Translations under genes and position numbers: made by a program
The notes under the pieces: generated by a model
What the model was told of the DNA's origin: nothing
Seen by the model: only the letters and a program-made list of their open reading frames with translations
Databases searched by the model: none
DNA from: Epilithonimonas hominis
Lineage (GTDB): Bacteria > Bacteroidota > Bacteroidia > Flavobacteriales > Weeksellaceae
NCBI RefSeq assembly: GCF_003730015.1
Contig: NZ_RJTU01000061.1
Coordinates: 62,001-126,000 of the forward strand
Length of the DNA: 64,000 bases
Direction of reading: 5' to 3'
Shown here: positions 32,321 to 54,666 of the stretch, piece after piece
Layout of the letters: each line of letters starts with the position of its first letter
Numbering within the stretch: the stretch's first letter is position 1

Positions 32321-32433
32321 AAACACGTAGACACATAGGAAATGCTTAACAGAATTAAGTTTAAATAGCTATTTGAAGTTTTAGAAATAATTCATTTTAA
32401 ATTCTATTGTGCCTATGTGGTTCAAAAATAAAA
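32321..32433. repeat. CACATAG-type imperfect palindromic repeat
   Basis: The left arm AAACACGTAGACACATAGG (32321-32339) is an imperfect inverted match of the right arm CTATTGTGCCTATGTGGTTC (32404-32423). The right edge TGTGGTTCAAAAATAAAA is identical over 18 bases to the right edge of the repeat at 50524-50652. It fills the space between the broken ABC gene and the adenosyltransferase gene. Confidence 0.65.
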
Positions 32434-50036: not shown

Positions 50037-50106
50037 ATTTGAAACAACAAAAGTCACAAAAGCTTTTTTTATTTTTAAGTTCAAAAAAGAAAGCCAAACA
50101 TAAATA

Positions 50107-50514
50107 ATGATAACACAATCTTATTTGACAGATTTAACTTATAAAATAAACGAAGCTTGTATTGAAGTTCACAAACATTTAGGTTCTGGCTTATTAGAAA
50201 GTGTTTATTGTGAAGCTTTGAAAGAAGAATTTGCTTTAAGAAATATTAATTTTAAATCTGAATTTAGAATTAATGTTATTTATAAAGAAAAGACTCTAAA
50301 TTGTGATTTCAGATGTGATTTTTTGATTGAAGATATAATTGTTTTGGAAATTAAGTCAGTCAAAAAGTTTGATGAAATGCATAAAGCTCAACTCTTAAAT
50401 TATATGGGATTATTAAAAGTTCCGAAAGGAATTCTTATTAATTTCAATGTAAAAAATATTTTTCACGAAGGGCAAGAAACATTTGTTAATAAGTATTATG
50501 AACAATTAATGTGA
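50107..50514 (+). CDS. GxxExxY protein, PD-(D/E)XK nuclease-like
   Basis: A 135-residue cytoplasmic protein of the GxxExxY family (PDDEXK_3-like). The naming motif is G28-LL-E31-SV-Y34, after helix INEACIEVHKHLG. A PD-(D/E)XK core follows with Asp71 in FRCDFLIEDIIVLEIKSVKK (67-86) and Glu81-Ile-Lys83. A closing block LLNYMGLLKVPKGILINF fits the fold. The biochemical activity of the family is not established to my knowledge. The gene is bracketed by CACAAAAG-type repeats, unlike its neighbours. Confidence 0.88.
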   Translation: MITQSYLTDLTYKINEACIEVHKHLGSGLLESVYCEALKEEFALRNINFKSEFRINVIYKEKTLNCDFRCDFLIEDIIVLEIKSVKKFDEMHKAQLLNYMGLLKVPKGILINFNVKNIFHEGQETFVNKYYEQLM

Positions 50515-50523
50515 TTTTTTATA

Positions 50524-50652
50524 AACCACAAAAGTCACAAAAGAAGAGTGAAAGTTTTCTTTTTAAAGAAGAAATGAGAAAACAAGTCCTTATTTTTCTT
50601 TAAAGACCGAATTAATTTCTCTTCAAATAAAACTTTTGTGACTTTTGTGGTT
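50524..50652. repeat. Perfect-ended palindromic element downstream of the GxxExxY gene
   Basis: AACCACAAAAGTCACAAAAG (50524-50543) and its exact reverse complement (50633-50652) frame 89 bases of AT-rich sequence with further partial self-complementarity. Each arm is a tandem pair of CACAAAAG units. Its right edge shares 18 identical bases with the repeat at 32321-32433. Confidence 0.8.
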
Positions 50653-50678
50653 CAAAAATAAAACAATAAAAAAGTAAA

Positions 50679-51830
50679 ATGAAAATAGGAATACTTTGCT
50701 ATCCAACTTACGGCGGAAGCGGAATTGTAGCAACAGAATTAGGAATGAGTTTAGCCGATAAAGGCTTTGAAGTTCATTTCATCAGTTCAGCTTTGCCAGC
50801 ACGTTTGGACGTTACCAATCCGAATATTTTTTTCCATAAAGTCAACGTTCAGACTTATCCGCTGTTCCAATATCAGCCTTACGATATTGCCTTATCATCC
50901 ATGATATATCGGGTAGTCAATCTTTACAAATTGGATATTCTTCACGCTCATTATGCGATTCCTTATGCTTATGCGGCGTTTACAGCGAAGCAAATGTTGA
51001 AAGCGGACAACAAAGATGTTCCTTTGGTAACAACACTTCACGGGACAGACATTACTTTGGTGGGACAACATCCGAGTTATAAACACGCTGTTGAGTTTTC
51101 GATTAATCAAAGTGATGCGATAACATCAGTTTCTGAGAGTTTGAAAAAAGATACACTTCAGTTTTTTAATATTCAGAAAGACATTCAGGTGATTACCAAT
51201 TTTATTGATAATTCTGAATTCGAAGAATGTACGACTTGTCAAAGAGAACAATTTGCGAGTGATGATGAAAAAATCTTGATTCACGTTTCCAATCTTCGAC
51301 CGGTAAAGAGAATTCAGGATGTTTTGGAGATTTTCAAAAATGTCAACAAGAAAGTAAAATCAAAACTGATTATCATTGGAGAAGGCCCGGAAATGGAAAA
51401 AATCTCCGAGTTTATGGAACATAATCCAGATTTGATAGGCAAAATCAAATTACTTGGAAAAGTGAATAATTTATATCATATTTTACAGCTTTCCGATGTG
51501 TTTCTTCTACCTTCGGAACAGGAAAGTTTTGGTTTGGCGGCGTTGGAGGCAATGGCGGCGAGAACACCGGTTATTAGTAGCAATGCAGGCGGAATTCCGG
51601 AAGTTAATATCCAAGGAGAAACCGGATTTTTGGCAGAAACCGGAAACGTTGAAGCGATGTCCAATTATTGCATCAAACTGTTGAGTGATGAAACTCTGCT
51701 TTCCGAAATGAAGAAAAACGCAAAAGCACAAGCCATCCATTTTGATTTGAAGAATATTCTTCCGATTTATATTGAGATGTATCAGAATACGATTGCCAAA
51801 TTTGAAGAAGCTAAGTATAAAGAAGTGTAA
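50679..51830 (+). CDS. bshA: N-acetyl-alpha-D-glucosaminyl L-malate synthase
   Basis: A GT4 glycosyltransferase that joins GlcNAc from UDP-GlcNAc to L-malate, the first step in bacillithiol synthesis. The 383 residues begin MKIGILCYPTYGGSGIVATE, the BshA-specific N-terminus. HAHYAIPYAYAAF (about 89-101), TTLHGTDITLVGQHPSY, and the donor-site HVSNLRPVKRIQDV and EQESFGLAALEAMA motifs are all present. Its start lies 26 bases after a palindromic repeat. bshB and bshC are not in the window. Confidence 0.93.
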   Translation: MKIGILCYPTYGGSGIVATELGMSLADKGFEVHFISSALPARLDVTNPNIFFHKVNVQTYPLFQYQPYDIALSSMIYRVVNLYKLDILHAHYAIPYAYAAFTAKQMLKADNKDVPLVTTLHGTDITLVGQHPSYKHAVEFSINQSDAITSVSESLKKDTLQFFNIQKDIQVITNFIDNSEFEECTTCQREQFASDDEKILIHVSNLRPVKRIQDVLEIFKNVNKKVKSKLIIIGEGPEMEKISEFMEHNPDLIGKIKLLGKVNNLYHILQLSDVFLLPSEQESFGLAALEAMAARTPVISSNAGGIPEVNIQGETGFLAETGNVEAMSNYCIKLLSDETLLSEMKKNAKAQAIHFDLKNILPIYIEMYQNTIAKFEEAKYKEV

Positions 51831-51853
51831 AATCTTAAATATAAATCATAAGT

Positions 51854-51923
51854 CTTCGACTCCGATCAGACTGACATTATTGAACGTTTAGAATTCGAGA
51901 TGTCACACTGAGCGGAGTCGAAG
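51854..51923. repeat. CTTCGACTCCG palindromic repeat
   Basis: The left arm 51854-51876 (CTTCGACTCCGATCAG plus CTGACA in register) and the right arm 51901-51923 (TGTCACACTGAG then CGGAGTCGAAG) pair at about 20 of 23 positions around a 24-base loop. This GAGTCGAAG-type sequence is a dispersed intergenic repeat that I recognise from many Bacteroidota genomes. Here it lies between bshA and the DUF2851 gene. Confidence 0.75.
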
Positions 51924-51980
51924 TGTTTTAGATTATTAATTAGCATTTTCAAATCTATATTTAAAATATTTCTGTAACTT

Positions 51981-52013
51981 AACCTTCCGGAGTTTTTCTT
52001 CGGAAGGTTTTTG
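51981..52013 (+). terminator. Terminator after bshA
   Basis: AACCTTCCG (51981-51989) pairs with CGGAAGGTT (52001-52009), then T's. It lies 23 bases before the next gene, so it could also act as an attenuator. Confidence 0.75.
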
Positions 52014-52035
52014 TTTAACGGAAATCAACACACAA

Positions 52036-53671: not shown

Positions 53672-53723
53672 TGTATTTTAAAAGAAGTCTAGTCTAGCTT
53701 CTAAATTTAATTTTTATTATTAA

Positions 53724-53893
53724 GAGCCTGTTTAAAAATAATTAAAACCACATAGTCACATAGAAAAACTCAAGATTAATTGCAAAAAAGAAAAAATAGA
53801 AGTACAATATTTACTATTTTTTCTCTTATTTTTCCAAAAACTATGTGTCTATGTGGTAATAAAATTATTTCTGATACAAATTTAAACAGGCTC
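53724..53893. mobile_element. MITE-like element with nested palindrome at the sdhB stop codon
   Basis: Perfect 13-bp terminal inverted repeats (GAGCCTGTTTAAA at 53724-53736 and TTTAAACAGGCTC at 53881-53893) are flanked by TAA on both sides (53721-53723 and 53894-53896), a 3-bp target duplication. Inside, AACCACATAGTCACATAG (53746-53763) and CTATGTGTCTATGTGGT (53841-53857) form a second inverted repeat of the CACATAG type. There is no coding capacity. Ends starting GAGCC and a 3-bp TNA target suggest mobilisation by an IS5/IS1031-like transposase, which is an inference. It occupies most of the gap 53555-53892. Confidence 0.7.
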
Positions 53894-54666
53894 TAAGAAT
53901 TAGCTGTAGAAAGGTTAGCCACTGCAAATTCGCGGTTCATTCTTGCGATGTTTTCCAAAGAGATTCCTTTTGGACATTCTACCTCACAAGCTCCGGTGTT
54001 GGAACAATTTCCGAATCCTTCTTCGTCCATTGCTTTTACCATATTCAGAACTCTTCTTTTTGCTTCTACACGACCTTGTGGTAATAATGCGAACTGAGAA
54101 ACTTTTGCTCCAACGAACAACATTGCAGAACCGTTTTTACAAGTTGCTACACAAGCTCCACAACCAATACAAGCAGCAGCATCCATCGCTTTGTCTGCAT
54201 CTTCCTTAGGAACCAGAATTGCGTTGGCATCCAAAGTGTTTCCTGAAGTGTTTACAGAAACAAATCCACCTGCAGCCATCACTCTGTCGAATGCGCTTCT
54301 ATCAACCACCAAATCCTTGATTACAGGAAAAGCAGCACTTCTCCAAGGTTCTATATGGATTGTTTCGCCATCTTTGAAATGACGCATATGCAGCTGGCAA
54401 GTGGTGATTCCTGTATCTGGACCGTGCGCTCTACCGTTGATGTAAAGTGAACACATTCCGCAGATTCCTTCACGGCAATCGTGGTCAAAAGCAACTGGGT
54501 CTTTTTCCTCGTTGATTAATTGCTCGTTTAGGATATCCAACATTTCTAAGAATGAAGAATCTGTAGAAACATCAGAAATTTTATAGGTATCGAATTGTCC
54601 CTTCGATTTATTATTTTTTTGTCTCCAAATTTTCAGCGTAAGATTTAAGCCTTTTTTTGCACTCAT
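53893..54666 (-). CDS. sdhB: Succinate dehydrogenase / fumarate reductase iron-sulfur subunit
   Basis: A 257-residue electron-transfer subunit linking the flavoprotein to membrane quinone. The 2Fe-2S site is in [20 protein letters not shown] (about 64-83, with a later Cys in TTCQLHM). The 4Fe-4S and 3Fe-4S sites are in [11 protein letters not shown] and [15 protein letters not shown]. It is the last gene of the sdhCAB operon. Its TAG stop is completed by the first base of the 170-bp element that abuts it, and the coding sequence appears intact. Confidence 0.95.

Follow-up and report, generated by a model that had tools for sequence, protein, structure and literature searches.

GxxExxY genes of Bacteroidota mostly lie between tandem-unit arms that co-vary with the protein: a possible partnership of nuclease and palindrome

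Introduction

Of 296 Bacteroidota genomes sampled, 152 encode GxxExxY proteins, representing 88 of 140 genera. For this family, described as common and unexplained, no function was found in the open-access literature searched, where the accessible passages on GxxExxY concern matters other than arms. The stretch of DNA analysed here (64,000 nucleotides, hereafter the window) contains one such gene between repeats that are first direct and then inverted, which raises the question of whether gene and repeats belong together. A preliminary description of the locus had suggested that the protein may maintain, process or spread the palindromes, much as RAYT proteins relate to REP sequences. Searches of open-access literature on palindromes, RAYT, the four-helix protein, Flavobacterium and Bacteroidetes gave no description of an association between GxxExxY and arms, and searches for PDDEXK_3 and for six arm sequences as text gave nothing.

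The locus and its protein

The features of the window to which the text refers are the following (strand in brackets, where there is one).

50042..50062 (+): left arm, two tandem CACAAAAG units with one mismatch, from the repeat search
50063..50106 (+): leader with the inner motif AAGTTCAAAAAAG, which also occurs in the loops of type-A palindromes without a gene
50107..50514 (+): GxxExxY gene, encoding a predicted PD-(D/E)XK protein of 135 aa with a Cas4-like fold
50523..50543 (+): second direct arm, which is the left arm of the downstream hairpin, from the repeat search
50544..50632 (no strand): loop of the downstream hairpin, 89 nt, partly self-paired
50633..50653 (−): inverted arm, the right end of the unit, from the repeat search
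32323..32421 (no strand): diverged type-B palindrome without a gene, with CACGTAG/CACATAG arms
53723..53894 (no strand): type-B palindrome without a gene, with outer inverted ends AGAGCCTGTTTAAA and arms at 53748-53763 and 53841-53856

The arm is repeated directly and then inverted, as had been described, and each copy consists of two CACAAAAG units with a period of 9 nt. The two direct arms are identical over 95% of their 21 nt, while the inverted pair (50515-50543 and 50633-50661) has a complementarity of 90%. The 134-nt hairpin that lies 3′ of the gene (50522-50655) is stable when folded as a single strand (z = -6.4, with none of 200 shuffles as stable). The two gene-less palindromes that had been reported as related are also present (32323-32421 and 53748-53856), but they belong to a sister type, CACATAG, which matches another GxxExxY protein of the same genome.

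Scans of the window protein against Pfam and NCBIfam returned PDDEXK_3 (PF13366; E 1e-36, 126.3 bits against a cut-off of 22), GxxExxY (TIGR04256; E 6.9e-38, 129.6 bits against a cut-off of 35) and a sub-threshold Cas4 match only, with no HUH motif, catalytic tyrosine or Y1 transposase domain. Across 68 aligned homologues, G28, E31, Y34, E81, K83, N112 and F113 are invariant, and D71 and Q95 are kept in at least 90%; by analogy with the PD-(D/E)XK superfamily, we take E31, E81, K83, D71 and Q95 to be catalytic. The conserved acidic residues, the ExK motif and the fold all agree with that superfamily, and we are confident that this is a predicted PD-(D/E)XK nuclease with a Cas4-like fold and intact putative catalytic residues. 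A profile search for a solved relative gave no convincing match, and the weak Foldseek matches include a homing endonuclease domain (3r3p, I-Bth0305I, E about 0.1). The gene is under strong purifying selection, with a median dN/dS of 0.07 between same-site orthologues at 15 sites, 14 of which lie below 0.5.

Arms beside other GxxExxY genes

The arm score used here is that of the best inverted repeat between the 300 nt upstream and the 400 nt downstream of a gene, and 188 control genes from twelve 20-kb stretches had a 95th percentile of 13 and a maximum of 15.5. The matches listed in relatives gave 105 genes, 104 of them scorable, after fragments, matches below the cut-off and one internally deleted copy had been omitted. 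Their median score was 19, as against 10 for the controls; 87 of the 104 exceeded 13 and 76 exceeded the 99th percentile of the controls. Among 37 loci from named genomes, 35 scored above 13 and 31 above 15.5. Some of these apparently duplicate genes of the relatives set, a duplication that is removed by collapsing the 141 genes, by their neighbouring genes, into 49 independent sites represented by the median member. As 41 of the 49 sites score above 13 (33 above 15.5), the enrichment is not an artefact of counting orthologues.

Beyond these relatives, the 30 best-scoring matches of a search across Bacteroidota, one of them broken by a stop, gave scores above 13 in 22 cases. Their arms are built of tandem CRCDRAG units that are direct on the upstream side of the gene and inverted on the downstream side. 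Such units flank the gene on both sides at 24 of the 30 loci; the count is 2 of 30 for the wrong orientation and 0 of 188 for the controls, with a motif that was drawn up after these 30 loci had been viewed. A hold-out was made for that reason, consisting of 20 further loci among the next matches, picked from the list by the author and fetched once the motif was fixed, 18 of them from genomes that had contributed none of the 30. Units were found on both sides in 16 of the 20, the wrong orientation giving 2 of 20, and 14 of 20 scored above 13. Dialects differ, so that the generic motif alone has both sides in only 34 of the 104 relatives and in none of the 37 named loci; an extended list of units raises this to 56 of 104 and 30 of 37, with 4 of 188 controls. 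By either the score or the oriented units, 128 of the 141 genes and 44 of the 49 sites have arms, against 9 of 188 controls, with a unit list that was enlarged once more after the arms of the same 141 genes had been seen. The remaining 13 genes have arms by neither measure, and some are plainly armless (for instance, that of genome G000 at C36 and its orthologue in G004).

The arm layout is thus confirmed as general in Bacteroidota GxxExxY loci, and the enrichment that was predicted is present, the arms being abundant beside these genes and rare beside the 188 controls, with the hold-out in agreement. Among eight plasmid-borne GxxExxY genes, three scored above 13, namely those of Bernardetia and Bacteroides (both Bacteroidota) and Gemmatirosa, the last scored on a frame that was short and with a less clean layout. 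The Treponema gene has a short exact pair adjoining it (score 11), the Sphingomonas gene has units upstream only, and the Fusobacteria, Persicobacter and Prevotella genes were below the threshold of 13; outside Bacteroidota, one of four plasmid genes exceeded it.

Arm dialects and the protein

The wording of the arms is not constant. Along the protein tree, the dialects CACAAAAG, CACATAG, CACTTAAG, CTCGCAGATTT, CGCAAAG, CACAGAG and others succeed one another, arms and protein changing in step, with CATATAAG in Flavobacterium and CACCTTAG in a Chitinophaga. Considering only genes that score above 13, and one gene per site, arm similarity correlates with protein similarity (Mantel rho 0.26, p 5e-4, 42 sites), and in 24 of these 42 cases the arm that belongs to the nearest protein from a different site ranks within the most similar tenth. 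When arms are shuffled within genomes (87 genes), the match falls from 0.431 to 0.310 (sd 0.019, maximum 0.373 in 300 shuffles). Neither species nor base composition would by itself produce such covariation, and an explanation by genome or species alone is ruled out. Arm dialect tracks the protein, both across unrelated sites and within genomes.

Palindromes without a gene

The genome of the window contains 31 type-A arms (CCACAAAAGNCACAAAAG with at most one mismatch, 14 + 17), against 1 + 0 for the reversed pattern, and 46 type-B arms (CACATAG), against 0 for the control; these repeats are not chance. Gene-less palindromes with matching arms reach tens of copies per genome, and the copies examined are intergenic. 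Many of type A consist of AACCACAAAAGTCACAAAAG and its inverse, separated by about 90 nt, and contain an inner inverted motif. In shuffle tests against 14 gene-less loops of each type, the type-A leader (from the window) gave a z of 6.0 and the type-A trailer (from G005) a z of 2.3, and the type-B leader and trailer (both from G010) gave 3.4 and 4.4; the tests omit the subfamily with AGAGCCTGTTTAAA ends and the downstream hairpin of the window itself. Since the loops resemble leader and trailer, the gene-less copies look like the unit minus its gene.

The type-B subfamily with outer ends AGAGCCTGTTTAAA, which frame the palindrome, is represented in this genome by seven similar copies, spread over six places and including 53723-53894, and such a distribution indicates dispersal. 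Dispersed copies that share the same ends, as in TIR transposons and MITEs, are therefore present; the outer ends also give an impression of likeness to those of insertion sequences. Separately, a CTTCGACTCCGCTCAGTGTGACA-like repeat, palindromic as well, was seen near or inside such sites (L108, the L111 orthologue in G017, positions 51830-52035 of the window and positions 10187-10277 of L237).

For one arm type, copy number goes with the protein. The seven genomes that encode a matching protein contain 22-63 CACATAG arms each, and the 16 without it 0-22 (Mann-Whitney p 1e-4, uncorrected for kinship), six of the seven clade-B genomes falling into two lineages of a tree built on bshA alone, from which G001 is absent. 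Type-A arms number 27-83 with a clade-A protein and 3-45 without (p 0.04), and the counts of type-D arms overlap between the two groups; the clade of each genome was read by eye from the protein tree. That copy number always follows the protein is thus unsupported, the relation being clear for type B, weak for type A and not separated for type D.

These copies could have been moved by some other enzyme (a RAYT or another transposase) or by replication slippage, with GxxExxY as a passenger or cargo. Y1 transposase genes do occur in 21 of the 23 genomes of the genus, and the insertion-sequence-like look of the ends of one subfamily would also fit. Against this, exact type-A or type-B arm strings were found within 300-400 nt of none of 12 Y1 genes examined, 11 of which scored above 13 through repeats of other sequence and so serve as a positive control of the scoring method. 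That the arms belong to RAYT is thus unsupported for types A and B. Moreover, the genome with the most type-A arms (G005, with 83) has no Y1 match, and covariation of arm and protein is not expected of a passenger. We consider this account rather improbable.

Orthologous sites

At the bshA junction, which was compared by eye in 22 genomes of the genus, the gene is present in five genomes (internally deleted in one of them) and remnant palindromes in two. In five others, a CTCGCAGAT-like palindrome lies within type-A arms in varying states of decay; six genomes lack a palindrome, and the last four contain other sequence. In G002 and G013, the first codons and the arms are retained, the middle is deleted and the palindrome is kept, while in the form found in G005 the gene occupies the position of the hairpin loop. 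No clean empty site was found at this junction, the six genomes without a palindrome having spacers of 53-77 nt and differing sequence. The 100 nt before bshA are identical in G010 and G016 (L077 and L080), though their bshA genes differ; recombination restricted to the junction may thus have emptied the site in G010, the sister of G000 in the bshA tree.

Other sites show nesting and replacement. For instance, a CACTTAAG-type palindrome lies inside a type-A palindrome of the window's own genome (L130). When 21 palindrome sites of this genome, out of 23 candidates, were compared by eye with G017 and G004, the 42 comparisons gave the same palindrome in 22, a different element in seven (at six sites), an empty site in five, another gene or insertion sequence in four and no determinable state in four. 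In L262, a gene-less type-B palindrome of this genome corresponds in both relatives to a GxxExxY gene unit of type E, and in L128 (995-1360 of L292) a type-A palindrome shared with G004 corresponds in G017 to a unit with an S23 four-helix gene (TIGR02436, E 2.1e-26). Two of the seven exchanges rest on short S23-like remnants and none of the seven comes from the second batch of nine sites; with a baseline of hairpins in 12 of 155 intergenic regions, exchange between palindrome sites is suggestive. Five aligned empty sites had no consistent target-site duplication. The comparison of occupied and empty sites that had been proposed thus yielded occupied, empty and deleted states at orthologous positions, but the empty ones are mostly unclean and no target duplication accompanies them. 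Gene copies share fixed sites across species, which suggests that the gene itself moves rarely.

Some of these observations would also fit homing, in which palindromes already present are cut by the product of a selfish nuclease gene and repair of the cut copies this gene into the loop, so that the palindromes would be targets rather than offspring. The gene of G005 sits where a hairpin loop would be, other elements nest in palindrome loops, L262 contrasts a gene-less palindrome with a gene unit in two relatives, and the weak structural match to I-Bth0305I is to a homing endonuclease. However, the arm dialect follows the protein and not the site, the gene copies are common to fixed sites, the gene-less palindromes contain inner motifs of the leader and trailer of the gene, and derivatives with gene remnants exist. 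Homing appears unlikely.

S23 genes in similar arms

The layout is not unique to GxxExxY, as S23 four-helix genes also stand between similar arms. From a sample of 30 S23 loci, one of which was dropped, 18 of the 29 scored were above 13 and 14 above 15.5, with arms worded differently. Outside rRNA, S23 genes (L135-L164; for instance, L142, L145 and L152) are often found between inverted arms of GGTGACTGG-, TTAGACG- or GTTGTCGG-like tandem units. As a separate observation, Y1 (RAYT-like) genes were seen less than 2 kb from S23 genes in G004 (C1:1926205/1927965), G018 (C2:871736/873385), G006 (C59:94786/96610) and G015 (C1:312638/314432).

S23 is known from the intervening sequences of 23S rRNA, where RNase III cuts the paired ends (PMC4990558, in its available passages). 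The arms of GxxExxY genes might likewise act in the transcript, as terminators or RNase III stems that isolate or autoregulate the gene, the likeness between copies being secondary. The stability of the hairpin, the similar layout of these S23 genes and the intergenic position of the copies examined would agree with this. However, it leaves unexplained the dispersal of similar copies, the empty sites and why the sequence of the arms, and not merely their pairing, co-varies with the nuclease; we regard it as very improbable.

A possible mechanism

We favour a system of enzyme and palindrome in which GxxExxY recognises, cuts and disperses palindromes of its own dialect, and we give this a probability of about one half. 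In such a system, a small Cas4-like nuclease would pass vertically and be kept by selection. Its targets would be the tandem units in arms of its own dialect, recognised probably when those arms are extruded as a hairpin or cruciform or are single-stranded at replication, and it would cut at the recognised arms. Subsequent repair or copying may then keep up and disperse palindromes with matching arms, the products being the gene-bearing copy and gene-less copies derived from it. The enrichment of the arms and their covariation with the protein are as the RAYT-like relation proposed in the preliminary description predicts; that the protein recognises, cuts, moves and maintains the palindromes is what we infer.

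More tentatively, palindromic elements across Bacteroidota, and possibly beyond, may form a superfamily whose dedicated nucleases are the GxxExxY proteins. These would recognise their own dialect and write palindromes at or into existing ones, and junctions would serve as slots in which palindromes of competing dialects, and S23 elements too, take each other's place. If this doubtful but conceivable extension were true, competition between pairs of nuclease and palindrome would have given rise to an entire layer of intergenic DNA. Even the narrower reading would offer a likely origin for many intergenic palindromes of Bacteroidota and, as it links GxxExxY to a specific DNA substrate, makes the function of these proteins directly testable.

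Comparison with known systems

The unit of the window differs from the intervening sequences of rRNA, which lie inside the 23S rRNA gene and carry S23, as its neighbours on either side are protein genes and its product is GxxExxY. Both have a reading frame in the loop of a stem of terminal inverted repeats, an arrangement termed a selfish element in the available part of PMC4990558. By contrast, GxxExxY is a predicted nuclease and not a four-helix protein, is located outside rRNA, has dispersed gene-less copies and has arms that vary with the protein. It also differs from Cas4 and RecB-type nucleases in being a stand-alone protein of 135 aa that is tied to inverted arms. As with MITEs and TIR transposons, forms with the gene and forms with an internal deletion share their ends; unlike in these, the ends consist of tandem units and the unit lacks a DDE or HUH transposase. 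The five empty sites aligned gave no consistent target duplication.

A close parallel is with RAYT, REP and REPIN (REPtrons), where a vertically inherited gene also coexists with many dispersed palindromes that lack it, and where copies of the repeat flank the gene (PMC3733652, as far as its available passages go). The same passages describe TIRtrons as RAYT-like genes between long inverted repeats, to which the position of the GxxExxY gene between inverted repeats is similar. REPINs of E. coli are commoner where a RAYT is present, according to the available part of PMC8049555, and in our case palindromes of type B are commoner where the matching gene is present. The two systems differ in their enzyme, a Cas4-like PD-(D/E)XK protein instead of an HUH tyrosine transposase, and in their arms, which here are tandem CACAAAAG-like units with no GTAG tag at the ends of the arms or hairpin of the window. 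Additionally, the 12 RAYT-type genes examined in the genus are accompanied by repeats of their own. As enzyme, arms and tag differ, the GxxExxY system is not a member of RAYT/REPIN, though it would work alike. Layout, covariation of dialects and gene-less copies point, taken together, to a partnership of enzyme and repeat of which the open-access papers searched gave no description. Our best reading is that it works in the manner of RAYT/REPIN with an unrelated nuclease as its basis, which suggests that such partnerships of enzyme and palindrome have arisen independently.
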